Shown here piece by piece: positions 1 to 12,244 of a stretch of DNA of 64,000 nt. Each line of letters opens with the position of its first letter. Position 1 is the first letter of the stretch. The DNA is from Epilithonimonas lactis (GTDB lineage: Bacteria; Bacteroidota; Bacteroidia; Flavobacteriales; Weeksellaceae), in assembly GCF_900110605.1 (NCBI RefSeq), contig NZ_FOFI01000002.1, forward strand, positions 744,001 through 808,000, written 5' to 3'. Made by a program: the position numbers and the translations under genes. Under the pieces are notes generated by a model. The model was not told the DNA's origin. It was given only the letters and a program-made list of their open reading frames with translations, and made no database searches.

Positions 1-638
1 TTTTCTCAGGTACAAAAACCTATTTCTTAGGAAATCCAATCCGTCAAAACATCATCACAGATTTGATGGACAAAGATTTCGCTAAGGAAAAATTAGGCTT
101 AGATAAAAATAAATTAACGATTCTCTCAGTCGGTGGTTCACTCGGTTCCAGAACTTTGAACAACGGTTGGAAAGATAATTTAGATAAATTAAAAGAAAAA
201 GATTACCAACTCATCTGGCAGACTGGAAAAACGGATTTTGCGGAGATAACTTCTAGCATCCATCCTCCTGCTTCCATCCAGATTAGGGAATTTATCTCCG
301 ATATGGCTTTGGCCTATTCAGCGGCAGATGTGATAGTTTCCAGAGCTGGTGCAATTGCGATTTCGGAATTGGCTGTTGCGAAAAAACCAGTTTTGTTGGT
401 TCCATTTCCGTTTGCTGCAGAAGACCATCAAACCAAAAATGCTTTGACCTTGGTTGAGAAAAATGCGGCGAGAATGGTCAAAGATTCTGAGATGAAGGAT
501 AAATTCTGGAACACGCTTTCCGAGATTTGTGAGAGTGAGAACCTGAGAAATGAAATGTCAACAAATCTGGAGTTTTTTGCAAAGCCAAAAGCAGCGGAAG
601 GAATTGTGGATGAGATTTTTAAAGTGATAAAGAAATAA
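1..638 (+). CDS. murG: MurG, UDP-GlcNAc transferase (5' end outside window)
   Basis: MurG adds N-acetylglucosamine from UDP-GlcNAc to lipid I to make lipid II at the inner face of the cytoplasmic membrane. The frame is open from base 3 with no start, so only about the last 212 residues are present: the C-terminal nucleotide-sugar domain. Visible motifs are SVGGSLGSR, a region reading SAADVIVSRAGA, and the segment PFPFAAEDHQTKNA, all typical of the MurG donor site. The TTG at 63 and ATG at 66 are internal codons, not starts, because family-like sequence (FLGNPIRQN) continues upstream in frame. It heads the division/cell wall cluster here and is followed after 12 bases by a small lipoprotein gene. 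Confidence 0.95.
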   Translation, partial: FSGTKTYFLGNPIRQNIITDLMDKDFAKEKLGLDKNKLTILSVGGSLGSRTLNNGWKDNLDKLKEKDYQLIWQTGKTDFAEITSSIHPPASIQIREFISDMALAYSAADVIVSRAGAIAISELAVAKKPVLLVPFPFAAEDHQTKNALTLVEKNAARMVKDSEMKDKFWNTLSEICESENLRNEMSTNLEFFAKPKAAEGIVDEIFKVIKK

Positions 639-650
639 CACAAAATAATA

Positions 651-1121
651 ATGAAAAAACTATTCTGGTTAATGTCTTTAATGCTTTTTTGGAATTGTGC
701 GCCAAAATATTTTTTGCCACTTCCAAAAAATAATACATCAAATGAAAGAATTGATAAAGCAAGAAGCTTTGCAGAATATTATTATAATAAATGTAACACT
801 AAGGATTTTTCTGAGATACAGGGTTATGTAATGGATGTTAATACAAAGAAATTTGGATTCTCACCAGAAGAAATTGAAAAGTATTGTAGTAAAAAGACTG
901 AAAGATATGGTAAAATTACGGTTGGTGAGTTCAATAAAGCAATAACCGTTGCACGTCCAACAGACTTCTATGATTACTTCATTTTTAAAGCAAAATTAGA
1001 AAAGTCAGACAGTTTAAAATATATTGTAGTAGGGCTTTTTAGAGATAAGGATGTTATTGGAGGAATGAGATTTACTGGAACTGCCAATCCTAAACTAGTT
1101 AGAACAAAGAGAAAAAAATGA
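651..1121 (+). CDS. Small predicted lipoprotein of unknown function between murG and murC
   Basis: This 156-residue protein is not one I recognise. It begins with a short hydrophobic signal (MKKLFWLMSLMLFWNC) whose last residue, Cys16, fits a lipobox, so it is probably a lipoprotein. The mature part is charged, with aromatic runs (EYYYNK, DFYDYFIF) and no motif I can name. Its stop overlaps the murC start by 4 bases (ATGA), and it starts 12 bases after murG, so it is probably co-transcribed and translationally coupled. The base composition looks more AT-rich than murG and murC. In most bacteria murG and murC adjoin directly, so this looks like an insertion in the cluster. Confidence 0.75.
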   Translation: MKKLFWLMSLMLFWNCAPKYFLPLPKNNTSNERIDKARSFAEYYYNKCNTKDFSEIQGYVMDVNTKKFGFSPEEIEKYCSKKTERYGKITVGEFNKAITVARPTDFYDYFIFKAKLEKSDSLKYIVVGLFRDKDVIGGMRFTGTANPKLVRTKRKK

Positions 1122-2491
1122 GCATCTTAAATAAATATCAAAACTTCTATTTTATCGGAATCGGTGGGATTGGGATGAGTGCGCTCGCGAGATTTTTTCA
1201 CGCGAACGGCAAAAACGTTTTGGGCTATGACAAAACACCAACGAAACTGACGGCTCAACTCGGTTTTGAAGGCATTGATATTTCATTTGAAGATGTGATA
1301 GATGAAAAAATCGTAGCGTTCGACAAAGAGAAAACTTTGGTTATTTACACGCCGGCAATCAAAAAATTAGCGATTCTGGATTATTTTGCCAGCGAAAGTT
1401 TTGAGATTTTGAAGAGAGCGAAAGTTCTTGGTTTAATTACCGAAAACACAGATTGCATCGCCGTTGCAGGAACACACGGAAAGACGACAACTTCCACTTT
1501 GATAGCACATTTGTGCAAAGAAGCAAATCTGCCGTCATCCGCATTTTTAGGTGGAATTTCCGAGAATTTCAAATCGAATTTCGATTACAATGGAAACCAG
1601 TTTTCTGTAGTTGAAGCCGATGAATACGACAGAAGTTTCCTGAATCTTTCACCAGATTGGGCTGTAGTAACCTCGATTGATGCAGACCATTTGGATATCT
1701 ATGGCGATAGGGTTCAGATTGAAGATGGATTCAGACAATTTGCGTCTTTGGTTCCGAATGACAATCAGTTGTTTGTCAGAAAAGGAATTGCGATTGGAAG
1801 AGAACATTTGACTTACGCGGTAAACGAGGAAGCGGATTATTACTCCGATAACTTGAGAATGGACCACGATAAAATCTACTTCGATTTCCACACGCCAACG
1901 GAAGAAATCAATGATTTTGTTTGGGAAATTCCAGGAATTCACAACGTGGAGAATGCGACGGTTGCTTTGGCGATTCTCAGCAATTTGGGCGTTGATTTCG
2001 AAACTTTGAAGAAAGCAATCGCAAGTTTCAAAGGCATCAAGAGAAGATATACGAAACATATTTTTGATAACGGAAAGATTTATATCGATGATTACGCGCA
2101 TCATCCAACAGAACTGAACGCGGTCATTGGTTCCATAAAAACCTTTTACCCGACCAAGAAATTGTTGGTGGTTTTCCAACCGCATTTGTTCAGCAGAACG
2201 AGAGATTTTGCGGAAGATTTTGCAAGAAGTCTGGAAAAAGCTGATGACCTTTTGCTTTTGGATATTTATCCAGCGAGGGAACTTCAGGAAAATTATGATG
2301 GAATCACCTCAACGTGGTTATCGGACAAAATTGAAATCGAACATAAGAAAGTCTGCACATTACAGGAGACTTTTGAATTGATAAAAGAAAAGGAATTCGA
2401 CATTCTTTTGACAGTCGGAGCCGGAAACATCGATACGCTTTATGACGGCATCGTGGAATGGCTTCCAAATATTGAAAAGGTGAGCATCTGA
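1118..2491 (+). CDS. murC: UDP-N-acetylmuramate--L-alanine ligase MurC
   Basis: MurC ligates L-alanine to UDP-MurNAc using ATP in the cytoplasm, the first step of the peptidoglycan stem peptide. The 457-residue length is normal. The N-terminal UDP-binding glycine motif GIGGIGM is at residues 14-20, the ATP P-loop GTHGKTTT at 118-125, followed by the Mur-ligase segments EADEYDRSF and DDYAHHPTE. The ATG at 1118 overlaps the preceding stop by 4 bases, and the stop shares one base with the start of the next gene, so three consecutive genes are tightly coupled. Confidence 0.97.
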   Translation: MSILNKYQNFYFIGIGGIGMSALARFFHANGKNVLGYDKTPTKLTAQLGFEGIDISFEDVIDEKIVAFDKEKTLVIYTPAIKKLAILDYFASESFEILKRAKVLGLITENTDCIAVAGTHGKTTTSTLIAHLCKEANLPSSAFLGGISENFKSNFDYNGNQFSVVEADEYDRSFLNLSPDWAVVTSIDADHLDIYGDRVQIEDGFRQFASLVPNDNQLFVRKGIAIGREHLTYAVNEEADYYSDNLRMDHDKIYFDFHTPTEEINDFVWEIPGIHNVENATVALAILSNLGVDFETLKKAIASFKGIKRRYTKHIFDNGKIYIDDYAHHPTELNAVIGSIKTFYPTKKLLVVFQPHLFSRTRDFAEDFARSLEKADDLLLLDIYPARELQENYDGITSTWLSDKIEIEHKKVCTLQETFELIKEKEFDILLTVGAGNIDTLYDGIVEWLPNIEKVSI

Positions 2492-3015
2492 TGAGATTAA
2501 AGCTTTCCATCTTAATCAGCATTTTGGTCTTCGGTTTTGCTTTTTCGCAGTCGAAAGAAGTTTTGGTGGTAGTGGAAAATATCAATAAGTATTCAAAAGT
2601 AATTGATAAGGACCCAAAGGTCATTGAGTATAAATTTGAAGTAAAAGGTAAGGACAAAACAATCCTTTATCAATACTCAAAAAAGGGAAATGAGATTGTA
2701 AAGATTTCCCGAGAATGGAAGCGAGATAGTAATGATTGGTGGGAATTGTACAGGGATTATTTTCTGTTAAAAAACGGAGAGCGGATTTTTGCAATTCAAA
2801 GTATAACTTATACGAATATGTCCGATGCAAAGGATATCATTGGATGGAGTTCTACTTTCTGGATTGATAAAAAAGTAATTCATATGGTCTCTTTAGGCCA
2901 CGGAAAATCTGAAATGGATGACTGGGATTATGAATTGGAATTGAAGGACAACTTCAATTATATGCTGAAAACGGCAAAGGAATTTGATAAAAACCGATTG
3001 GCGAAAATAAAATAA
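2491..3015 (+). CDS. Predicted secreted protein of unknown function between murC and ftsQ
   Basis: A 174-residue protein with a clear signal peptide (MRLKLSILISILVFGFAFSQ) and probable cleavage near residue 20. The mature part is rich in charged and aromatic residues, for example a WKRDSNDWWELYRDY segment, and shows no domain I can name. The start ATG shares its first base with the murC stop, which argues for translational coupling. It could be a periplasmic or surface protein. It sits where ftsQ normally follows murC, so it is the second accessory gene inserted in this cluster. Confidence 0.75.
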   Translation: MRLKLSILISILVFGFAFSQSKEVLVVVENINKYSKVIDKDPKVIEYKFEVKGKDKTILYQYSKKGNEIVKISREWKRDSNDWWELYRDYFLLKNGERIFAIQSITYTNMSDAKDIIGWSSTFWIDKKVIHMVSLGHGKSEMDDWDYELELKDNFNYMLKTAKEFDKNRLAKIK

Positions 3016-3060
3016 TTAAAGAAAAAACTTAGCGCAAAGGCGTTAAAACCAAGATAAGAA

Positions 3061-4059
3061 ATGAAAAATAAGTGGAGAATATTGAAGATACTAGTGACAG
3101 TCGTCCTTTTTGGATTTCTGCTCAGTTTCTCATTGAAGCGTTTCAACGATGCTAAGATGGAGAACGTGTCTATCAATATGAACCAAGGCAAAACGCCGGT
3201 TTATTTTGTGGATGAAAAAGACATCAAAGAATTGGTGAAGCAGTACAATCCGACAAGAAAAATAGGCGATATCAATATTCCGGAATTGGAGAAGAAAATC
3301 AATCTGATTCCTTTTGTGGACAGCGCCAATGTTTATCTGAACCTGAATGGAAATCTGAATGTGGACATCAAACAAAGAGTTCCGGCTTTCAGATTGAACA
3401 AGGACGGAAAAGATTTCTACGTCGATAAAAAAGGTGTGGAGTTTCCGATTTCAAAAAACTTCTCACTGCCAAGTATGTTGGTGATGGGCGATGTAAAACC
3501 TTCGGAATATGAAGCATTAGGAGACTTAATTGAGAAGATTGACAAAGATGATTTCAGTAAAAAATATTTCATCGGCATCACAAAAGAAAAGGAGGATTAC
3601 AATCTCTTGACCAGCGATGGAAATTACAAAGTTGAAATCGGCGACCTCGATAATATCGATTTAAAAGTAAGAGGTTTCAAAACCTTTGTTGAGAAATATC
3701 TGGTGGACCAGAATACGCAGAAGTACAAGAAAATTTCATTGAAGTATGATAATCAGATTGTCACCACGCTGAATCCTTATTTCAAAGAAAATGACAGCAT
3801 TCTAAGAAATGCACCAAAAATTGAGTTAAAGACGGAAGATGGAAGTCATAAACTGGAAGCGAAAAAATCGGAATCCAAACCAGAAGTAAAAAAACCGGAA
3901 CCGAAAAAAGAGGTTAAGAAAGCAGAATCAAAAAAGGAAACTGCAAAACCGAAAAAGGTAGAGAAAAAAGCAGAAGCAAAGAAAGTTTCTACCAAGAAAA
4001 AAGAAACCGCTTCCAAAACAAATGATAAAAAGAAAAAAACAAAAGTAGTGGTCGAATAA
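3061..4059 (+). CDS. ftsQ: Cell division protein FtsQ
   Basis: FtsQ links early and late divisome proteins from the periplasmic side of the inner membrane. The 332-residue protein has a short cytoplasmic end, one membrane segment at about residues 8-25, then a periplasmic part resembling the POTRA/FtsQ fold, including IPFVDSANVYLNLNGNLNVD. Assignment rests on this architecture plus its place before ftsA and ftsZ, because FtsQ sequences diverge. The last 65 or so residues form a low-complexity tail of Lys, Glu, Pro and Ala (repeated KPEVKKPEPKK-like units), probably disordered. The gene ends 11 bases before the inverted repeat that bounds the GxxExxY unit. Confidence 0.88.
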   Translation: MKNKWRILKILVTVVLFGFLLSFSLKRFNDAKMENVSINMNQGKTPVYFVDEKDIKELVKQYNPTRKIGDINIPELEKKINLIPFVDSANVYLNLNGNLNVDIKQRVPAFRLNKDGKDFYVDKKGVEFPISKNFSLPSMLVMGDVKPSEYEALGDLIEKIDKDDFSKKYFIGITKEKEDYNLLTSDGNYKVEIGDLDNIDLKVRGFKTFVEKYLVDQNTQKYKKISLKYDNQIVTTLNPYFKENDSILRNAPKIELKTEDGSHKLEAKKSESKPEVKKPEPKKEVKKAESKKETAKPKKVEKKAEAKKVSTKKKETASKTNDKKKKTKVVVE

Positions 4060-4070
4060 AAATGCAGAAC

Positions 4071-4137
4071 TGAACACAAAGCGCACGAAGATAATTTTCA
4101 TAAGCATTGAAGATAATGTTCGCAAAGGCGCTTCGCT
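4071..4137. repeat. Left inverted-repeat block of the GxxExxY unit
   Basis: Two segments, 4071-4090 and 4117-4137, reappear in inverted orientation to the right of the GxxExxY gene. The outer 20-mer matches the reverse complement of 4611-4630 at 18 of 20 bases; the inner 21-mer matches the reverse complement of 4577-4597 at 19 of 21. The core GCAAAGGCG of the inner segment also occurs alone near 3032 and, with differences, near 8995. Confidence 0.8.
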
Positions 4138-4175
4138 CAGAAAAGATAAAAGATTATAAAATTTTAAACACACAA

Positions 4176-4562
4176 ATGAATGAAAATGAATTATCAAAAA
4201 TTGTTATTGATTCCGGATTAAAAGTTCATCGAAAGCTTGGAATGGGTTTATATGAAACTGTTTATGAACAATGTTTGGAATTTGAACTGAAAAATAGAGG
4301 GTTGAGTGTAGAAAGACAAAAATCCTTATCAATCAATTATGAAGGTTTGAAAGTGGAGAATGCCTTTAGAATTGATTTGGTGGTAGAAAATAAAGTAGTA
4401 TTAGAAATAAAAGCACAAGAGATACTTAATGATTTTAATTCAGCTCAACTTCTGAATTATTTGAAATTAGGAAATTACAAATTAGGATTACTGTTGAATT
4501 TCAATTCGAAATTATTTAAAACAGGAATAAAAAGAGTTGTGAACGGCTATATAATAGAATAA
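4176..4562 (+). CDS. GxxExxY family protein
   Basis: A 128-residue member of the GxxExxY family, whose function is unknown to me; the family is common in Bacteroidota and has a nuclease-like look. The naming motif GLYETVY is at residues 24-30. A later stretch, RIDLVVENKVVLEIKA, has the Asp...Glu-x-Lys spacing of PD-(D/E)XK nucleases, which is an inference. The frame is open to an ATG at 4107, but that start would include the inner inverted repeat in the protein; family members normally begin close to the ENELSK-like helix, so ATG 4176 is chosen. It lies between ftsQ and ftsA, which usually adjoin. Confidence 0.85.
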   Translation: MNENELSKIVIDSGLKVHRKLGMGLYETVYEQCLEFELKNRGLSVERQKSLSINYEGLKVENAFRIDLVVENKVVLEIKAQEILNDFNSAQLLNYLKLGNYKLGLLLNFNSKLFKTGIKRVVNGYIIE

Positions 4563-4576
4563 TTAAATCTTATATA

Positions 4577-4630
4577 AGCAAAGCGCCTTTGTGAACAAAA
4601 GAAAAAAAACCTTTGTGCGCTTAGTGTTCA
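4577..4630. repeat. Right inverted-repeat block of the GxxExxY unit
   Basis: Contains the inner arm 4577-4597 and the outer arm 4611-4630, which are near-perfect reverse complements of 4117-4137 and 4071-4090. The order inner-then-outer mirrors the left side, so the whole of 4071-4630 is symmetrical about the gene. No target duplication was visible at the outer edges. Confidence 0.8.
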
Positions 4631-4666
4631 AAAAAAATTAATTAGAAAAATCAAATCGAACATATA

Positions 4667-6061
4667 ATGGAAAATCAAGAGTATTCAGTAGGTCTGGACA
4701 TTGGGACAACCAAGATTGTCGTCATTGTCGGAAGACGAAACGCTCACGGGAAAATTGAAATTCTGGGCGTTGGAAAAGCAAAAAGTTTAGGCGTTCACAA
4801 AGGAATTGTCAATAATATTTCCCAAACCATCAACTCCATCAAGTCCGCCGTGGCAGAAGCACAATCCAGCGCTGGCGTGCCTATTACCAAAGTGACGGTT
4901 GGAATTGCAGGCAAACACATCCGTTCGCTTCAGCATTCGGATTATATTATGAGAGACCATCCGGACCAGTACATTACGGAGGAGGATATCGAAAAACTAA
5001 AAGACCAGGTGAAGAAGTTGGTGATGCTTCCAGGTGAAGAAATCATCCACGTTTTACCTCAGGATTATAAAGTAGATTCAGAAGGCGAAATCCAGGAACC
5101 AGTCGGGATGCACGGCAAAAGATTGGAAGCCAATTTCCACGTGGTGGTGGGACAAATGGGTTCTATCAGAAACATCGCGAGATGCGTTCGTGAAGCCGGT
5201 TTGGAAATGGAAGCTTTGACATTGGAACCTTTGGCATCGTCCGAAGCGGTTCTGACTAAAGAAGAAAAAGAAGCAGGTGTTGCGATTGTTGATATTGGTG
5301 GTGGAACTACGGATATTGCGATTTTCAAAGACAATATCATCCGTCATACTTGCGTGATTCCTTACGGTGGTGGGATTATCACCGATGATATTAAGGAAGG
5401 ATGTTCCATCATCGAGAAACACGCGGAGCAACTGAAAGTGAAATTCGGTTCGTCTGTTCCAGAATTGGAAAAAGACAGCACTTACGTGACAATTCCAGGA
5501 TTGCACGGTCGTCCAGACAAAGAGATTTCGTTAAAAGTTTTGGCTCAAATCATCAATGCGAGAGTTGAAGAAATTCTTGAAATGGTGAATACAGAATTGA
5601 AAGCTTACGGCGCATTCGAACAAAAGAAAAAACTGATTGCCGGAATTGTTTTGACAGGCGGTGGTTCCAATTTGAGAAACCTTCGTCAATTAGCGAACTA
5701 CACAACAGGCTTCGACAGCAGAATCGGTTTTGCTAATGAATATGTGGCTAACGACAAAAACCAATATTTGAAAGGTCCGGAATTTGCAACTTCCATCGGT
5801 TTGTTAATGGAAAGTCTGAAAATCCGCGACAAGAAAATGCTGGTGACAGAGGAAGAAATCATCGAAGAATTGAAACCTCAAATCGAAAATGCAATCCAAG
5901 CGCAGACTCAGACTCAATCTCAGGAAATCCAAACGCCTCAGGTTCAGAATGACATCGTAGAGATGGCGAAACACAAAGCAGAAGTGAAGAAAAATCGACC
6001 AACTTTCGGGCAATCACTGATGGACAAAGTCAAAAAATTCTTTGAAGAAGTAGAAGAGTAA
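4667..6061 (+). CDS. ftsA: Cell division protein FtsA
   Basis: FtsA is the actin-like ATPase that tethers FtsZ filaments to the membrane and recruits the divisome. The 464-residue protein shows the actin-fold signatures: phosphate-1 GLDIGTTK at 9-16, phosphate-2 VDIGGGTTD near residue 210, and the adenosine motif VLTGGGSNL near 325. After the ATPase core comes a Gln-rich linker and a C-terminal amphipathic helix (MDKVKKFFEEV) that fits a membrane-targeting sequence. It lies directly upstream of ftsZ, separated by an 84-base gap that can fold into a long hairpin. Confidence 0.97.
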   Translation: MENQEYSVGLDIGTTKIVVIVGRRNAHGKIEILGVGKAKSLGVHKGIVNNISQTINSIKSAVAEAQSSAGVPITKVTVGIAGKHIRSLQHSDYIMRDHPDQYITEEDIEKLKDQVKKLVMLPGEEIIHVLPQDYKVDSEGEIQEPVGMHGKRLEANFHVVVGQMGSIRNIARCVREAGLEMEALTLEPLASSEAVLTKEEKEAGVAIVDIGGGTTDIAIFKDNIIRHTCVIPYGGGIITDDIKEGCSIIEKHAEQLKVKFGSSVPELEKDSTYVTIPGLHGRPDKEISLKVLAQIINARVEEILEMVNTELKAYGAFEQKKKLIAGIVLTGGGSNLRNLRQLANYTTGFDSRIGFANEYVANDKNQYLKGPEFATSIGLLMESLKIRDKKMLVTEEEIIEELKPQIENAIQAQTQTQSQEIQTPQVQNDIVEMAKHKAEVKKNRPTFGQSLMDKVKKFFEEVEE

Positions 6062-6071
6062 AAAACATAAA

Positions 6072-6123
6072 TGATAATTGATAAACGATGACTGATTCAT
6101 CACTTATCATTTATCAATCATCA
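6072..6123. repeat. Long hairpin in the ftsA-ftsZ gap
   Basis: Arms 6072-6095 and 6100-6123 are inverted copies with 20 of 24 Watson-Crick pairs plus one G-T pair and a 4-base loop. The arms consist of TGATAA/TTATCA words. No long T run follows, so it is not a classical terminator. It occupies most of the gap between ftsA and ftsZ. The 13-mer at 6103-6115 recurs exactly at 57982-57994. Confidence 0.85.
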
Positions 6124-6145
6124 ACTATAAAAAAAACATACCATT

Positions 6146-8026
6146 ATGGACAATATATCAAATACACAAGGTTTTTCCTTTGACCTACCAAAAGGGAATT
6201 CTGCCATCATCAAAGTAATTGGTGTTGGTGGCGGTGGAAACAACGCTTTGAAGCATATGTACGAGAAAGGGATTTACGGCGTAGATTTCGTAATCTGTAA
6301 TACCGATGCACAGACTTTGGACAACAATCCGGTTTCTAACAAAGTTCAGCTAGGAATCTCAATGACAGAAGGTCTTGGCGCAGGTGCTGACCCGGAAGTT
6401 GGAGAGAAAGCGGCGATTGAAAGTATCGACGAAATCAAAGCGGCGATGGGACAAAACACCAAGATGGTTTTCATCACTGCCGGAATGGGCGGTGGAACGG
6501 GAACTGGTGCGGCGCCTGTGATTGCAAAAGTAGCAAAGGAAATGGGAATCCTGACTGTAGGAATCGTAACCGTGCCTTTTAGTTTTGAAGGAAAAAGAAG
6601 ATTGGACCAAGCTGAATTGGGTCTAGATAAATTAAGAAATAATGTTGATTCCCTGATTGTCATCAATAATGATAAATTAAGACAACAATTTGGAAATCTT
6701 GGTTTCAAACAAGGTTTTTCCAAAGCCGATGAAGTTTTGACCAACGCGGCGAAAGGAATGGCAGAGGTGATTACAGGTTATTTCGATGTCAATATCGATT
6801 TTCGTGATGCAAAATCTGTCCTTCAGAATTCCGGAACAGCATTGATGTCAACCGGCGTTGCAACTGGCGAGAAAAAAGCGGAAGAAGCAGTGAAAAAAGC
6901 ATTGGATTCTCCATTGTTGAATGATAACAAAATCACCGGAGCGAAAAACGTTCTATTGTTAATCAGAAGCGGTGTTTCTGAGGTGACGATGGACGAAATC
7001 GGTGTGATTATGGACTATATCCAGAAGGAAGCTGGCCACACGGCTGATATTATTTTTGGAGTTGGAACGGATGAGGAATTGGGCGATGCGGTAAGCGTTT
7101 TGGTCATCGCAACTGGTTTTTCTAATGATGATAAAAAGCATACAGGAACAACTGAAACGATTAAATATTCTTTGGACGACAGACCAAATTCGTTTTCAAG
7201 AAACAGAGAATCCCCTTTCAAAAGCAGACTTCAGGAAGAGTCAAAACCTCAGCCTGAATCTGGAAAGAACTTTTTTCGTTTAGAAGATGAGGATGATTTT
7301 GGAACCTCCAATTTTCCAACTAATTCTTTAGTAGAAAGTTTGGTGGAAGAAGTGGAAACGGAAACTCAAATCATCGAGAACGAGGAAATCGTAGATTATT
7401 CTAATGATTACAACGATGGAAAGCAGGAGTACAATCTTTTCAATTTTGAAGATGATGCAAATGACGACTTCGATTTGGAGCCACAATCTTTCACTTTCGA
7501 AGTAGAGGACAAGCCAAAAGCGTCTTTCAAAACTGAGGAAGTAGAAAAACCGGTTGAAGTTACTTTTACCATCAACGAATCTCCAGCGGAAGAGGAATTT
7601 CCTGTCATCGAAAAGCAAGTCATTTCCGAAGTTAAAGAAGAAATCGTACACGAGGTTGTCGAAGAAAAAATCGAGGAGCCAAAAGCTAACAATTACGCTT
7701 TCACATCAGAAGGAAAAGAAGAAATCGTAGAAGACAAAAAACCAGAGCCAGTTCAGGAAACTGAAAGTGGATTCACGTTTTTCAACAAAACTTCCGACAC
7801 GGCTTCAAAGGCGATGGACAGAAGAAATAAGTTGAAAGAATTCAATTCCCGTTACCAACAATTGGACAATGAGAATGTTTTCGAAACAGTTCCGGCTTTC
7901 AAAAGAAAAAACATCATCATCGATGGCGCCAACGCATCAGACCAAAACATCAACACATTTTTGTCTGACAACAACGGAAATATGCAACTGAGAGAAAACC
8001 GTTTTCTTAATAAAGATGTAGATTAA
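6146..8026 (+). CDS. ftsZ: Cell division protein FtsZ
   Basis: FtsZ is the tubulin-like GTPase that forms the division ring. The GTPase core (about residues 1-335) shows the glycine motif GVGGGGNNAL near 27-36, the tubulin signature GGGTGTGAAP, and the T7 synergy loop NIDFRDA with its two Asp residues, so it should be catalytically competent. At 626 residues it is much longer than E. coli FtsZ. The extra length is an acidic, Glu/Val-rich linker (about 345-580), followed by a conserved-looking end that includes VPAFKRKN, the probable partner-binding peptide. Long linkers are usual in Flavobacteriia. Confidence 0.97.
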   Translation: MDNISNTQGFSFDLPKGNSAIIKVIGVGGGGNNALKHMYEKGIYGVDFVICNTDAQTLDNNPVSNKVQLGISMTEGLGAGADPEVGEKAAIESIDEIKAAMGQNTKMVFITAGMGGGTGTGAAPVIAKVAKEMGILTVGIVTVPFSFEGKRRLDQAELGLDKLRNNVDSLIVINNDKLRQQFGNLGFKQGFSKADEVLTNAAKGMAEVITGYFDVNIDFRDAKSVLQNSGTALMSTGVATGEKKAEEAVKKALDSPLLNDNKITGAKNVLLLIRSGVSEVTMDEIGVIMDYIQKEAGHTADIIFGVGTDEELGDAVSVLVIATGFSNDDKKHTGTTETIKYSLDDRPNSFSRNRESPFKSRLQEESKPQPESGKNFFRLEDEDDFGTSNFPTNSLVESLVEEVETETQIIENEEIVDYSNDYNDGKQEYNLFNFEDDANDDFDLEPQSFTFEVEDKPKASFKTEEVEKPVEVTFTINESPAEEEFPVIEKQVISEVKEEIVHEVVEEKIEEPKANNYAFTSEGKEEIVEDKKPEPVQETESGFTFFNKTSDTASKAMDRRNKLKEFNSRYQQLDNENVFETVPAFKRKNIIIDGANASDQNINTFLSDNNGNMQLRENRFLNKDVD

Positions 8027-8031
8027 AAATT

Positions 8032-8121
8032 GTACTAATGTATTGACGTAAAATGTATTAACGATTAAAAGTTACATTGCATTTTCAGTCATAAATACAT
8101 TAATACTTTTTACATTAATAC
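8032..8121. repeat. Imperfect hairpin in the ftsZ-yqeY gap
   Basis: Outer arms 8032-8042 and 8111-8121 pair at 10 of 11 positions, and inner arms 8052-8059 and 8094-8101 pair at 8 of 8. The arms are made of TAATGTATT/ACATTAATAC words. It fills most of the 102-base gap between ftsZ and yqeY and has the same design as the hairpins at 6072 and 29399, though with different words. Confidence 0.7.
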
Positions 8122-8128
8122 AAAAATT

Positions 8129-8575
8129 ATGAGTTTAGAACTTACCATAAACGATGCGATAAAAACCGCAATGAGGGAGAAGGACAGAGTTGCTCTGGAT
8201 TCTCTCCGTGCTGTGAAAGCGCAAATATTATTGCTGAAAACAGAAGCCATTGGAGCAGAAGTTTCAGCAGAGCAGGAAATTGCAATTTTGCAAAGAATGA
8301 TTAAGCAAAGAAAGGATTCCTACGACCAATTTACGGCTCAGGGAAGAACGGACCTTGCGGAAGTAGAAGAAGCGCAATCCAAAGTGATTGAGAAGTTTCT
8401 TCCACAACAGCTTACTGCAGAAGAATTGGAAACGGAAATCAAAAGAATCATTTCTGAGACCGGCGCAGAAAGCATCAAGGATTTAGGAAAAGTAATGGGT
8501 GTCGCTTCCAAAGCATTGGCCGGAAAATCAGACGGAAAGAGCATTTCCGAAATGGTGAAAAAATTGCTTTCTTAA
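8129..8575 (+). CDS. yqeY: GatB/YqeY domain-containing protein
   Basis: A 148-residue stand-alone YqeY protein, related to the C-terminal tRNA-binding helical domain of the amidotransferase subunit GatB. The role of the free-standing form is not settled; a link to tRNA metabolism is inferred from the domain. Family features are the N-terminal helix ending RALDSLRAVKA-like (here DSLRAVKAQILLLKTE), the RMIKQRKDSYDQF segment, and the C-terminal DLGKVMGVASKAL region. Position directly after ftsZ is common in Flavobacteriia. A terminator follows at 8703. Confidence 0.93.
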   Translation: MSLELTINDAIKTAMREKDRVALDSLRAVKAQILLLKTEAIGAEVSAEQEIAILQRMIKQRKDSYDQFTAQGRTDLAEVEEAQSKVIEKFLPQQLTAEELETEIKRIISETGAESIKDLGKVMGVASKALAGKSDGKSISEMVKKLLS

Positions 8576-8580
8576 GTTGT

Positions 8581-8659
8581 TGGAAGCTGGAAGTCAGATG
8601 CTGGAAGTTAAATTATGACAGAATATTTTAAACTTCGAACCTCCATCCTCCAGCTTCCA
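8581..8659. repeat. Long imperfect hairpin after yqeY
   Basis: Arms 8581-8609 and 8631-8659 pair at 21 of 29 positions, including a perfect outer 11-bp block (TGGAAGCTGGA with its complement). The words GGAAGCTGGAAG are unrelated to the AT-rich words of the hairpins at 6072 and 8032, but the overall design is the same. It starts 6 bases after the yqeY stop. Confidence 0.8.
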
Positions 8660-8702
8660 TCCAAAAACTGGATATTCAAAATATGCATATCGATTTGATT
8701 TG

Positions 8703-8733
8703 AACCCAAAGTCTAAGGATTTTGGGTTTTTAT
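8703..8733 (+). terminator. Rho-independent terminator after yqeY
   Basis: Perfect 8-bp stem AACCCAAA / TTTGGGTT (8703-8710 with 8721-8728), 10-base loop, then a T-rich run. It probably ends the division cluster transcript. Confidence 0.8.
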
Positions 8734-8818
8734 TTATAGTGTAATCCTAAGTTATAATCAAAATTTAATGTCAAAAATGAATTGAATCTCTATCTTGAAG
8801 GTTTATTTAAAATTAAAA

Positions 8819-8885
8819 ACCGCAGAGCGGAAAATCCATTGGTAGAAAATCTATTAATTGTAAAAAAAGCTTCAAAGAAGCGACC
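8819..8885 (+). repeat. Two-hairpin dispersed repeat, copy A1
   Basis: A small hairpin CCGC-AGA-GCGG (8820-8830), a spacer containing CCATTGGTAGA, and a second hairpin GCTTC-AAA-GAAGC, followed by GACC. Copies A2 and A3 at 16148 and 16279 keep both stems and the spacer but with different stem bases. Confidence 0.85.
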
Positions 8886-9133
8886 TATTTTTCGCCAGTA
8901 AACGCAATAGATATTTTCAAAATTTCATACAATCCCGATTTCATCGAAGATAAAAACTTTGCAACTTTCAAAACATCATATTCATAATTCTTGCGCCTTT
9001 GCGCTAATTTTCCACACAACGCTTTAAAGCAAAAAGCCATTCGCTGTAAGTCATTTTCCTGTCAAAATGGCTCAATAGATTTTCGGAATGGTTTTAATAG
9101 AATGAAAGATGAGCCAAGCAAAATAATTATGAT
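8886..9133. other. Intergenic DNA without a recognised gene
   Basis: About 250 bases between repeat A1 and the promoter of the bacilliredoxin gene. No start-to-stop frame with protein-like composition was found. It contains near 8992 a word resembling the GCAAAGGCG core of the GxxExxY flanks. One frame stays open through the repeat to 8987 but has no start codon. Confidence 0.5.
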
Positions 9134-9141
9134 TAAATTTG
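9134..9141 (+). promoter_or_regulatory. Promoter -7 box of the bacilliredoxin gene
   Basis: TAAATTTG matches the Bacteroidota -7 consensus TAnnTTTG, 46 bases before the ATG at 9188. No TTG was seen at the expected upstream distance. Confidence 0.5.
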
Positions 9142-9187
9142 CAACTCAAACGAAACTTTGAACGTTAAACTTTTAAACAAATCAATT

Positions 9188-9598
9188 ATGTATCCAGCAG
9201 ATTTAGTATTGCCAATGAAGGCAGAACTTACAGATAAAGGCTTCCAGGACCTTACAACACCAGCAGAAGTTGACTCGGCACTTAAACAATCGGGCACAAC
9301 TTTATTAGTCATCAATTCAGTTTGCGGATGTGCGGCAGGCGCAGCAAGACCAGGAGTTTTGTACTCTTTGACGGGCGAGAAGAGGCCAGACCATTTGGTA
9401 ACAGCTTTTGCAGGATTTGATACGGATGCAGTCGCTGAAGCAAGAAGATTGCTGGCGCCGTTCCCTCCAAGTTCTCCAGCTGTGGCACTTTTCAAGGACG
9501 GAGAGTTGGTGCATATGTTAGAGAGACATCACATCGAAGGAAATCCTGCAGGCGCAATCGCTGCGAATCTTCAGGCGGCTTTCGACGAATATTGTTAA
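9188..9598 (+). CDS. BrxA/BrxB-type bacilliredoxin
   Basis: A 136-residue member of the YphP/YqiW (DUF1094) family of thioredoxin-like disulfide reductases. In Bacillus these remove bacillithiol from proteins; whether this organism makes bacillithiol cannot be read here. The signature CGC motif is at residues 46-48 (NSVCGCAAG), and the family start MYPADLVLPM is intact. An in-frame TTG at 9158 would add 10 residues, but the ATG at 9188 gives the conserved N-terminus and is preferred. Monocistronic, with a promoter box at 9134 and a terminator at 9603. Confidence 0.93.
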   Translation: MYPADLVLPMKAELTDKGFQDLTTPAEVDSALKQSGTTLLVINSVCGCAAGAARPGVLYSLTGEKRPDHLVTAFAGFDTDAVAEARRLLAPFPPSSPAVALFKDGELVHMLERHHIEGNPAGAIAANLQAAFDEYC

Positions 9599-9602
9599 GA
9601 AT

Positions 9603-9637
9603 AAAAAACCAAAATAGAAATATTTTGGTTTTTTTTA
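9603..9637 (+). terminator. Terminator after the bacilliredoxin gene
   Basis: Perfect 14-bp stem (9603-9616 with 9621-9634), GAAA tetraloop, and a T run. Strong intrinsic terminator. Confidence 0.9.
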
Positions 9638-9680
9638 TGACTATAGATAAAAATCACCTTTTATAGTTTTTATTATTTTT

Positions 9681-9688
9681 TAAATTTG
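9681..9688 (+). promoter_or_regulatory. Promoter -7 box of prs
   Basis: TAAATTTG matches TAnnTTTG and lies 18 bases before the ATG at 9707, implying a short leader. Confidence 0.6.
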
Positions 9689-9706
9689 CAAAAAAGTAAA
9701 GAAAGA

Positions 9707-10648
9707 ATGTCAGATCATCAAGCCAGTTATCTATTTTCAACAAGGACCAGCCATGAGTTGGCAGAAAAGATTGCCAAAAGTTACGGGCAAACACTTGGAA
9801 TCATTAATTTTCAACATTTCAGCGACGGAGAGTTCGAGCCTGTCTTGGAACAGTCAGTAAGAGGAGCGCGAGTTTTCCTTATCGCCTCTACATTTCCACC
9901 AGCGGACAATCTTCTGGAATTACTATTAATGATAGATGCTGCAAAAAGAGCGTCTGCCAAAAATATCACCGTCGTGATTCCTTACTACGGTTTGGCAAGA
10001 CAAGACAGAAAGGATAAACCAAGAGCACCAATAGGCGCAAAATTGGTTGCCAATCTTTTGACTGCAGCCGGAGCTACAAGAATTATGACAATGGATCTCC
10101 ACGCTGATCAGATCCAAGGTTTCTTTGAGATTCCAGTGGATCACCTTTATGCTTCCACAATTTTTGTAGATTACATCAGAAATCTGAATTTAGAAAATCT
10201 TACCATTGCTTCACCAGATATGGGTGGTGCAAAGAGAGCAAAAAATTACGCCGGACATTTGGGAGCCGATGTCGTAATTGCTTATAAAGAAAGAAAAAAA
10301 GCCAACGTGATAGAAGAGATGTTCTTGATTGGTGATGTAAAAGACAAGAACGTGATCCTGATAGATGATATGATCGACACTGCGGGCACACTTTGCAAAG
10401 CGGCGGACATCTTGATGGAAAAAGGAGCCCGTTCGGTAAGAGCAATGGCAACACACGGCGTTCTTTCTGGCAAAGCTTATGATAACATCGAGAATTCTCA
10501 ATTGTTGGAGGTGATCGTAACAGATTCTATCCCAGTTAAAGCAGGTTTGTCTTCCAAAATCAAAGTGCTTTCTTGTGCGGATCTGTTTGCTGATGTCATG
10601 AAAATGGTACATGAGCACAAATCCATCAGTGATAAGTTCATTATTTAA
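9707..10648 (+). CDS. prs: Ribose-phosphate pyrophosphokinase
   Basis: Makes PRPP from ribose 5-phosphate and ATP, feeding purine, pyrimidine, histidine and NAD synthesis. The 313-residue length is normal. Visible signatures are the SDGEFEP start of the N-terminal domain, the DLHADQIQGFF segment, SPDMGGAKRA, and the PRPP-binding loop LIDDMIDTAGTL. An in-frame TTG at 9686 lies within the promoter box, so the ATG at 9707 is taken as the start. The gene is followed 43 bases later by rplY with its own promoter box. Confidence 0.97.
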   Translation: MSDHQASYLFSTRTSHELAEKIAKSYGQTLGIINFQHFSDGEFEPVLEQSVRGARVFLIASTFPPADNLLELLLMIDAAKRASAKNITVVIPYYGLARQDRKDKPRAPIGAKLVANLLTAAGATRIMTMDLHADQIQGFFEIPVDHLYASTIFVDYIRNLNLENLTIASPDMGGAKRAKNYAGHLGADVVIAYKERKKANVIEEMFLIGDVKDKNVILIDDMIDTAGTLCKAADILMEKGARSVRAMATHGVLSGKAYDNIENSQLLEVIVTDSIPVKAGLSSKIKVLSCADLFADVMKMVHEHKSISDKFII

Positions 10649-10658
10649 AAAAAATTAA

Positions 10659-10666
10659 TACCTTTG
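10659..10666 (+). promoter_or_regulatory. Promoter -7 box of rplY
   Basis: TACCTTTG matches TAnnTTTG, 25 bases before the rplY start at 10692. Confidence 0.6.
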
Positions 10667-10691
10667 CACCCTTAAAATAATTTTATACAAA

Positions 10692-11330
10692 ATGAAATCA
10701 ATTACAATTCAAGGTACAAAAAGAGAAAGCGTGGGCAAAAAGTCTACTAAAGCTTTACGTGATGCTGAATTAGTTCCTTGTGTTGTTTACGGAGGTGGCG
10801 AGCCATTGAACTTCTCTGCATTGGAGAAAGCGTTCAAAGGTTTGGTATATACTCCCGAAGCACACACGGTATCTATTGAAGTTGACGGACAGGTAATTCC
10901 TGCAGTTCTTCAAGATATTCAGTTCCACCCAATTACGGACAAGATCATTCACGCAGACTTCTACAGATTATCTGACGACAAGCCAGTAGTTATGGAAGTT
11001 CCAGTAAGAGTGACAGGTCGTTCCAAAGGTGTGGTTGCCGGAGGTGTTCTTAGACAAACTTACAGAAAACTAAAAGTAAAAGCTATCCCAGCTAACTTGC
11101 CAGACGAGATCGTAGTAGATATTACGCCTCTTAAAATTGGTAACAAGTTCTATGTAGAAAGTCTTAAAAATGACAAATATACATTCATGCACCCAGACAA
11201 CGCAGTTATCGTAGCTGTTAAAATGTCTAGAAATGCTAGCAAAAATGCTGCTGCAGCAATGGATGATGACGATGAAGAAGTAACAGAAGGAGGAGCAGAA
11301 GCTACTACTGAAGAAACTTCTGCAGAATAA
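10692..11330 (+). CDS. rplY: 50S ribosomal protein L25/general stress protein Ctc
   Basis: Binds 5S rRNA in the large ribosomal subunit. The 212-residue protein is the long (CTC/TL5) form: an N-terminal L25 domain (about 1-90, with [20 protein letters not shown] and the [17 protein letters not shown] segment) and a C-terminal beta domain (about 95-185), then an acidic tail rich in Asp, Glu and Thr. It has its own promoter box and a strong terminator at 11357, so it is probably a single-gene unit. Confidence 0.96.
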
Positions 11331-11356
11331 TTTTTTTTCTGTAAAAATAAAATTTG

Positions 11357-11387
11357 ACCGTCTCGTTTTTTGCGAGACGGTTTTTTT
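11357..11387 (+). terminator. Terminator after rplY
   Basis: Perfect 9-bp stem ACCGTCTCG / CGAGACGGT with a 7-base loop and a T run. Its core is shared by the terminator at 20441. Confidence 0.9.
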
Positions 11388-11419
11388 ATATATTTACATC
11401 AATCAAAAAAATTCAAACA

Positions 11420-12244
11420 ATGAAAAAACTTTTATTTTCTGTTTTATTATTACCAGTCATTGGAATGGCTCAAAGTTCTATCTACACAGAAAGCTTTGAA
11501 GAGATCACATCATTGCAAGACGCAGGATGGACTTTATACAATGATACTAATACGCCATTTGGAACTTATGCAGGTACATTCCCGAATGCGTGGAACATTG
11601 TGAATTGGCAAGTTGAAAGTGGAAATCTCGTTGCATCTTCGCCGTCTTGGTTTACTTCCATTGCGCAGGCAGACAGATGGTTGATCTCGCCAGCGATCAC
11701 TGTACCAGCAAATTCTACAGCGGCACTGGAGTTCTTTGCCAGATCTCACGATGTGAGTCCATATGATGATGGTTTCAAGCTCAAGATTTCCACGACCAAT
11801 ACAGCGAAAGCGTCATTCACCGATATTTTGAGTGTAGCGCACGCAGCCAATGTGCCGATCAGTAGCCAGACAGCGCCTTATGCTGTTGATCTGTCAGCTT
11901 ATGCCGGGCAAACGATCTATTTGGCTTGGGTCAATGATTATACGAACGGCAATCTTCTTAGTATTGATGATATCGATGTCACTTCCAAACCATTGATGGC
12001 GGTGAATGAAACTAATAAAAAAGATATCAACCTATTTCCAAATCCGACAGTAGATTATTTTAGTATTAGTAATATCAGTGATATTCAGTCTGTTAAAATC
12101 TATGATCTGTCAGGCAAATTGGTGGTGTCAAAATTAGAATCGGTGAATAACAAATTCGATGTTTCTAAGCTTGAAAAAGGGATCTACACAGTTTCTATTG
12201 AGACCAAAGCGGGAACTGTAAGCAAGAAGATCATCAAGAAATAG
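11420..12244 (+). CDS. T9SS cargo protein with a choice-of-anchor J-like domain
   Basis: A 274-residue exported protein. It has a signal peptide (MKKLLFSVLLLPVIGMAQ), then a jelly-roll choice-of-anchor J-like domain (about 20-195; SFEEITSLQDAGWTLYN, ADRWLISPAI, LSIDDIDV), and a type A T9SS sorting domain in the last 75 residues (LFPNPTVDYFSI ... LEKGIYTVSI ... KKIIKK). The sorting domain directs export across the outer membrane and attachment or release. Catalytic residues are not evident, so adhesion or carbohydrate binding is only an inference. An upstream in-frame start at 11354 would run through the rplY terminator and is rejected. A weak terminator follows at 12267. Confidence 0.85.
   Translation: MKKLLFSVLLLPVIGMAQSSIYTESFEEITSLQDAGWTLYNDTNTPFGTYAGTFPNAWNIVNWQVESGNLVASSPSWFTSIAQADRWLISPAITVPANSTAALEFFARSHDVSPYDDGFKLKISTTNTAKASFTDILSVAHAANVPISSQTAPYAVDLSAYAGQTIYLAWVNDYTNGNLLSIDDIDVTSKPLMAVNETNKKDINLFPNPTVDYFSISNISDIQSVKIYDLSGKLVVSKLESVNNKFDVSKLEKGIYTVSIETKAGTVSKKIIKK

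Follow-up and report, generated by a model that had tools for sequence, protein, structure and literature searches.

Several described systems resemble the locus reported here. In the accessible parts of two reports on RAYTs and REPs, the gene lies between inverted cognate repeats with which it has co-evolved, the repeats are dispersed as singlets and doublets, and their abundance is tied to the cognate gene (PMC2817692, PMC3116915). Insertion sequences carry a single gene between inverted ends and are accompanied by MITEs, miniature derivatives without the gene. Homing endonuclease genes are small nuclease genes that sit in conserved genes or operons, at the same place in several species. For GxxExxY proteins, no role was found in the open-access literature searched, and neither was any description of a link between the gene and a repeat. 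One source mentions a GxxExxY call next to a reverse transcriptase of the CRISPR type, at a place that a different tool annotated as cas4 (PMC8934634), and the genome of Chrysochromulina parva virus BQ1, a virus of a eukaryotic alga, lists a GxxExxY protein (PMC12085832).

Results

A GxxExxY gene lies between inverted arms in the division cluster

The window, that is, the whole stretch of 64,000 nt of the Epilithonimonas lactis genome analysed here, contains a gene for a 128-residue protein (4176-4562, forward strand) between an ORF at 3061-4059 and ftsA at 4667-6061, both also on the forward strand. The protein matches TIGR04256 with 138.6 bits (cut-off 35) and PF13366 with 137.4 bits (cut-off 22), and the right-hand neighbour matches TIGR01174 with 365 bits, which confirms the GxxExxY gene and the FtsA neighbour of a preliminary description of this DNA. 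The left-hand ORF is presumably ftsQ, as that description also had it; the name rests on position only, because an NCBIfam search with this ORF gave no match at 1e-5. The profile matches of the gene between the arms contain no known transposase, only GxxExxY/PDDEXK_3 and weak unrelated families.

The left arm (4071-4145, forward strand) has its inverted copy in the right arm (4567-4632, reverse strand). Each arm consists of two parts, an outer double box and, beyond a T-rich spacer, an inner box with a small hairpin-like end; these lie at 4071-4090 and 4117-4147 on the left and at 4611-4630 and 4567-4597 on the right. A recount reproduced the inverted matches first reported, 18 of 20 for the outer pair (4071-4090 with 4611-4630) and 19 of 21 for the inner pair (4117-4137 with 4577-4597), and a repeat search extends the inner pair to 31 nt at 84% complementarity. 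When the same geometry is moved across the window in 50-nt steps, an arm score of 37 is reached at 1 of 1262 positions, the GxxExxY locus itself. Among the 68 window ORFs of at least 100 codons, the GxxExxY gene is the only one with inverted-matching flanks above 50 shuffles.

The solo arm copies previously suggested near 3032 and 8995 do not rise above chance level by score within the window: the stretch 2983-3048 scores 34 as an arm, against up to 39 for unrelated window stretches, and position 8995 is absent from the nine best-scoring stretches. It is nonetheless plausible that the copy near 3032 is real, because GxxExxY genes precede ftsQ by about 0.1 kb in five congeners. The feature in question would be an eroded right arm 5' of ftsQ (3016-3060, reverse strand); it is weak, with a chance-level score, and lies near the positions of sister GxxExxY genes in congeners.

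Inverted arms recur at GxxExxY loci in several phyla

Arms were called where the inverted similarity of the two flanks exceeded that of all 50 shuffles, and other ORFs of 300-900 nt at the same loci served as controls. The 241 GxxExxY loci comprised 72 from the genus, 3 from viral contigs, 5 from plasmids, 30 from a Bacteroidota sample, 28 from a pseudomonadotal sample, 23 from six genomes of other groups, and the best 80 of at least 551 in named genomes. Removal of 6 duplicates and of 21 loci with a protein shorter than 105 residues or a flank shorter than 100 nt left 214 loci. The results show inverted arms at 168 of these 214 loci and at 13 of 232 control ORFs; earlier counts were 53 of 70 in the genus, and 61 of 81 GxxExxY loci against 11 of 146 controls. 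By set, arms are found at 51/65 loci in the genus, 59/75 in named genomes, 21/30 in the Bacteroidota sample, 20/23 in the pseudomonadotal sample, 11/13 in other-group genomes, 3/5 on plasmids and 3/3 on viral contigs, and on a plasmid of a named Gemmatirosa strain the arm score is 113 against a shuffled maximum of 29. The counts vary with the random shuffles (a repeat run gave 23/30 for Bacteroidota and 17/23 for the pseudomonadotal sample), the genus loci are not independent because they are distributed over 17 sites, and some of the non-Bacteroidota genomes are metagenome assemblies that are possibly misbinned. Arms thus recur at other GxxExxY loci (the preliminary description had proposed looking for the same arms at those of this genome), and their sequence differs between lineages.

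By the shuffle test, 46 of the 214 loci have no arms, including the Sphingomonas fabD-fabG copy and those in two restriction-type operons; on plasmids, none were found at the Sphingomonas and Fusobacteria copies. On the Sphingomonas parapaucimobilis plasmid (L262), the GxxExxY gene lies between fabD and fabG, co-directional with them, with arms undetected. Three further armless genes, L071 and L075 at site S11 and L082 at site S16, lie in restriction-modification-like operons, which we take from their translations to be of type III and type I. A weak specificity-subunit profile match was obtained at a restriction-type operon with a GxxExxY gene, and the genes in such operons are perhaps a separate use of the nuclease.

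GxxExxY genes over the cut-off occur in 73 of 148 sampled Bacteroidota genomes and in 18 of the 120 genomes of the pseudomonadotal sample. They are found in 6 of 72,556 plasmid records, phage records gave no GxxExxY match, and viral contigs yielded three relatives.

Arm sequence co-varies with the protein

The arms are iterated boxes of about 9-10 nt that match within a locus and differ between loci. Their self-similarity is highest at lags of 9-10 nt, a signal that is weak in the genus and clearer elsewhere; two sets show a second rise near lag 21-22. We scored each left flank against each right flank at 138 loci. The median score of a locus's own left-right pair is 36, while cross-locus scores stay at about 19, the noise level, when the proteins are less than 60% identical, and average 35 at 75-90% protein identity and 41 above 90%. 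The own pair beats at least 95% of the dissimilar-protein pairs at 105 of the 138 loci. Arm similarity is correlated with protein identity (Mantel r 0.32 in the genus and 0.26 in the wider set, with 0 of 1000 permutations each reaching these values); the tests were limited to pairs below 70% identity and were otherwise not corrected for orthologous insertions. On the genus GxxExxY tree, arm types follow clades. A first k-mer enrichment for arms was dominated by AT-rich words. The arm ends read TTTAAC/GTTAAA, and the likeness of these ends to integron attC-like cassettes is, we suspect, a coincidence.

Bare, arm-only and occupied junctions in congeners

The ftsQ-ftsA junction was inspected in all 23 genomes of the genus sample. 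Comparison of this junction in relatives for empty sites, as had been suggested, revealed a bare junction of 20 nt from stop to start in three congeners (G002, G007, and G021), while G012 has 34 nt there; computed against the 20-nt junction, the whole inserted stretch of the window is 587 nt long (4060-4646, forward strand). Gene and arms are present in the window genome and in G003, which has an additional inverted arm. Judged by eye, ten genomes (G001, G005, G006, G009, G010, G015, G017, G018, G019, and G022) carry one gene-free arm, G011 possibly has a degenerate arm, and five (G004, G008, G013, G014, and G016) have other sequence, while G020 has an arm and another repeat. The junction also hosts a repeat family resembling REPs (AGTCCCATCGGGACG...ATAGGGTTTCAACCCTAT), at L034 in G020, L037 in G013, L039 in G004 and L044 in G008.

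A second site lies between genes for a permease and an acyl-CoA thioesterase, and 15 of the 23 genomes have a close orthologue of the latter. The site is occupied by a GxxExxY gene in five of the 15 (G000, G004, G012, G013, and G022), and in six (G001, G003, G005, G007, G009, and G020) the permease and thioesterase genes overlap by 11 nt. Only the right-hand arm, beside other sequence, is present in G010, G015 and G018, and G021 has something else. Both genes are intact in the occupied genomes, and each side of the insert therefore has the 11-nt overlap; the two sides still share nine identical nucleotides (AAACAAAAT) in G013, and fewer in the window genome. A third site separates the gene of an iron- or B12-type permease from that of its ATPase; there, 10 of the 23 genomes have the GxxExxY gene and G016 a decayed copy; a direct junction of 2-12 nt is seen in five (G002, G008, G011, G014, and G018), and other sequence in seven. 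Bare junctions exist in congeners, either as the ancestral state or as products of deletion.

The proposal that gene and arms behave as a unit would have been refuted by the absence of arms from all other GxxExxY loci together with the presence of the gene at this junction in every relative, and neither is found. The unit is further supported by the bare and arm-only junctions, by the recurrence of arms across the 214 loci and by arm matching that holds inside each locus and is lost across distant lineages. On the tree, the neighbours of the window and G003 copies are division-cluster genes that, in six genomes, precede ftsQ: by about 0.1 kb in G002, G005, G014, G019 and G020, and by about 0.7 kb in G011. 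The window copy has probably long resided in the division cluster.

Inheritance and position of the gene copies

Estimated from substitutions at seven sites, where the median dN/dS is 0.06-0.20 and synonymous distances are high at some, the GxxExxY gene is under purifying selection. Clades mostly equal sites, so that most gene copies in the genus appear to be old and vertically inherited. Recent multiplication of the gene within a genome was not seen, the highest within-genome identity being 86%; relatives up to 86% identical occupy two sites, S00 and S06, also inside G001. We also observed re-use of some intra-operon junctions, in which distinct clades with distinct arms occupy one junction in different species, namely sufB-sufC (S01) and a fumarylacetoacetase junction (S08), with flanking genes that are 92-100% identical. 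The distribution is patchy, with 0-8 GxxExxY matches per genome within the genus. Broken or partial copies occur in congeners (G001:C1:99180, G016:C24:47029, G018:C28:18962, and G020:C1:1026376) and show gene loss. The gene is co-directional with both neighbours at 67 of 69 classed genus loci (of 72) and at 56 of 67 classed wider loci (of 80); for comparison, this holds for 29 of 53 window genes.

The protein is modelled as a PD-(D/E)XK nuclease

The residues D67, E77 and K79 of the predicted PD-(D/E)XK nuclease are invariant in nine of nine diverse congeners, and across 75 sequences E77 is invariant while D67 and K79 are kept in at least 90%. The structure model is confident (pLDDT 95.3, pTM 0.88). 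Its closest solved fold is 4ic1 (SSO0001; Z 9.7, 3.3 A over 100 residues), which we take to be a Cas4 protein, followed by 3ijm (Z 8.8) and, lower, by Holliday junction and restriction nucleases. A sequence search for a solved relative found none, a search of defence profiles gave only a weak Cas4b match (E 0.0043), and phage-family profiles gave weak matches of unknown function. No Y1/HUH tyrosine transposase of the IS200/IS605 kind is among the profile matches of the protein, which belongs to PF13366 and has a confident nuclease-fold model.

Gene-free arms and doublets are dispersed in the genomes

The pattern CRCAARGN{2,3}CRCWARG has 11-51 matches per genome in 23 congeners, against 0-3 for the reversed control. 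The window genome has 41 matches, against 1 reversed, and of the 41 just one has a GxxExxY gene within 400 nt. Most of the 30 matches inspected there are stereotyped single arms of about 85 nt, and six (L238, L241, L243, L244, L247, and L251) continue into an inverted second arm. Right-arm orientation was found in 17 of 21 matches whose neighbours agree in direction (p=0.007); four of the 21 are near-symmetric doublets, for which orientation has little meaning. G015 has 25 CRCAARG matches and no GxxExxY gene. Across genomes, GxxExxY gene number shows only a limited correlation with CRCAARG matches (Spearman 0.47, p=0.025, not corrected for phylogeny).

The CACATAG arm type is that of the gene clade at site S03, beside tilS. 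We searched it with one mismatch allowed, and the reversed control gave zero matches. The seven genomes with the S03 gene have 23-64 CACATAG arms and the 16 without it 0-27 (p=1.3e-4, uncorrected for phylogeny); the mismatch also admits some CACAAAG arms, and the counts among the latter are raised by them. For this arm type, then, abundance goes with the cognate gene, phylogeny being left uncorrected. Mismatched combinations of gene and arm are not significant (p=0.30-0.69), and the second arm type, GCAGAT, has a weak tie to its site S05 (p=0.063, again without correction for phylogeny).

In the two genomes listed in full, 52 of 64 (G005) and 38 of 48 (G006) CACATAG matches form converging pairs within 130 nt. 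All 40 CACATAG places that were fetched, mostly picked for their paired appearance, are inverted doublets with a median length of 108 nt. An inner inverted repeat was recognised in them by eye only; a regular expression for the inner box, poorly chosen, matched 2 of the 40. A larger repeat of the GAGCCTGTTTAAA type encloses the doublet in 11 of the 40 places (L350, L352, L353, L356, L357, L368, L370, L373, L375, L378, and L382), and this composite may have been spread by another transposase. Target duplication of a fixed length could not be shown among the flanks. Shared flank words average 5.46, against 4.68 (sd 0.33) in shuffled pairs, and 3 of 200 shuffles are as high.

Discussion

As far as the accessible parts of the literature on RAYTs (TnpA-REP) with their REPs, BIMEs and REPINs go, the GxxExxY system resembles them in that inverted cognate repeats flank the gene, repeats and protein co-vary, singlets and inverted doublets are dispersed, the gene phylogeny is largely vertical, and, for one of the two arm types tested and without correction for phylogeny, abundance goes with the cognate gene. 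Unlike RAYT, GxxExxY is a lone PD-(D/E)XK nuclease and not a tyrosine transposase; its arms are arrays of boxes of about 9-10 nt with doublets of about 108 nt, whereas REPs are palindromes of 20-40 nt; and its gene copies lie inside operons, co-directional with their neighbours. From the shared features and the unrelated enzyme we conclude that the GxxExxY system works like RAYT-REP without being a member of it.

Like insertion sequences and MITEs, the system comprises one gene with inverted ends and small derivatives that lack the gene, but it has no known transposase family and no demonstrated fixed target duplication, its arms are internally iterated, and its gene copies are old and not recently multiplied. 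Like homing endonuclease genes, GxxExxY genes are settled in conserved operons at places common to several species; unlike them, they lie between genes and not in an intron or intein, and have inverted repeats of their own that also occur alone. Fold, catalytic residues and the weak Cas4b profile match (E 0.0043) link the protein to Cas4, Hjc and other PD-(D/E)XK nucleases, from which it differs in its length of about 125 residues, in not having been seen here with CRISPR genes, and in its flanking cognate repeats.

We propose, with a probability of roughly 0.6, a two-part repeat system, selfish or domesticated, with GxxExxY as its dedicated endonuclease; binding, cutting and mobilisation are inferred. 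Each nuclease lineage is paired with its own arm, an array of boxes of about 9-10 nt. The arms occur as singlets and as MITE-like inverted doublets of about 108 nt, and they also form the inverted ends of copies that bear the gene. A gene copy thus amounts to a doublet whose loop contains the nuclease gene. The nuclease is predicted to bind and cut its own arms as DNA, and cutting would allow arms and doublets to spread in trans. Gene copies would persist at intra-operon junctions, where they would be co-transcribed and hard to delete, and may occasionally move between them. No movement of arms, doublets or gene has been observed. The suggestion that the window locus is perhaps a non-autonomous mobile or domesticated element is thus upheld as to the unit and revised as to the role: the gene-bearing copy is better regarded as the autonomous or mobilising member, and the gene-free arms and doublets are better seen as the non-autonomous ones.

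Alternatively, another host enzyme, an IS transposase or a RAYT, could move the repeats, with GxxExxY as a trapped passenger kept for another reason. The GAGCCTGTTTAAA-type composites around 11 of the 40 doublets, the solo arms that persist in G015 without any GxxExxY gene, and the GxxExxY genes without arms are all in keeping with this explanation. A passenger is not expected to co-vary with a repeat, and the co-variation therefore disfavours it: one protein family goes with many arm sequences that track its own phylogeny in several phyla, and CACATAG arms follow the lineage of their own gene and not a different one. We regard passenger status as unlikely, and it is not excluded.

Nor is a domesticated site-specific role excluded, in which the host has adopted GxxExxY as a site-specific DNA-processing enzyme for repair, recombination or chromosome organisation that acts at the arms, these being immobile at present. 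Vertical inheritance with clades that mostly equal sites, the low dN/dS, a fold nearest to Cas4-type, restriction-type and Holliday junction nucleases, and the scarcity on plasmids (6 of 72,556 records) and lack of any phage match would all suit such an enzyme. It is harder to reconcile with a distribution that is patchy even within one genus (0-8 per genome) and includes broken copies, with dozens of doublets of about 108 nt in lineage-specific sequence, and with unrelated clades that have unrelated arms at one junction; we give this role somewhat less credence still than that of a passenger.

The co-directional intra-operon position and the long inverted repeats could also mean that the arms act as RNA, forming a stem around the gene in a polycistronic message from which inserts are tolerated through processing, as with the intervening sequences of 23S rRNA. 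Arms often stand alone, without a partner, and sense-wobble mismatches between arms are fewer and not in excess (58 vs 89 in the genus, 39 vs 54 in the wider set), so that the strand-asymmetry test points in the opposite direction; no Rfam family reaches threshold at the arms (window 1-12000). The RNA reading is accordingly disfavoured and very improbable. Chance likeness in AT-rich intergenic DNA, where the AT-richness of the flanks does raise background scores, is refuted by the single position among 1262 of the same geometry in the window and by 168 of 214 loci against 13 of 232 controls.

The recurrent pairing of nuclease and repeat across many bacteria suggests an overlooked kind of mobile DNA. 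With GxxExxY tied to lineage-specific repeats, a binding sequence can be predicted for every protein, and the family is open to direct tests. Should mobilisation be demonstrated, GxxExxY would be a second type of enzyme, beside RAYTs, that founds bacterial repeat populations, and a source of insertions inside conserved operons such as ftsQ-ftsA, sufB-sufC and that beside tilS. More tentatively, and at somewhat less than even odds, a lone PD-(D/E)XK nuclease of about 125 residues, without a transposase, may mobilise its arms in trans and settle inside conserved operons as a broad class of selfish DNA. Such a class, if real, would make sense of both an unexplained protein family and various dispersed bacterial repeats with a periodicity of 9-10 nt.
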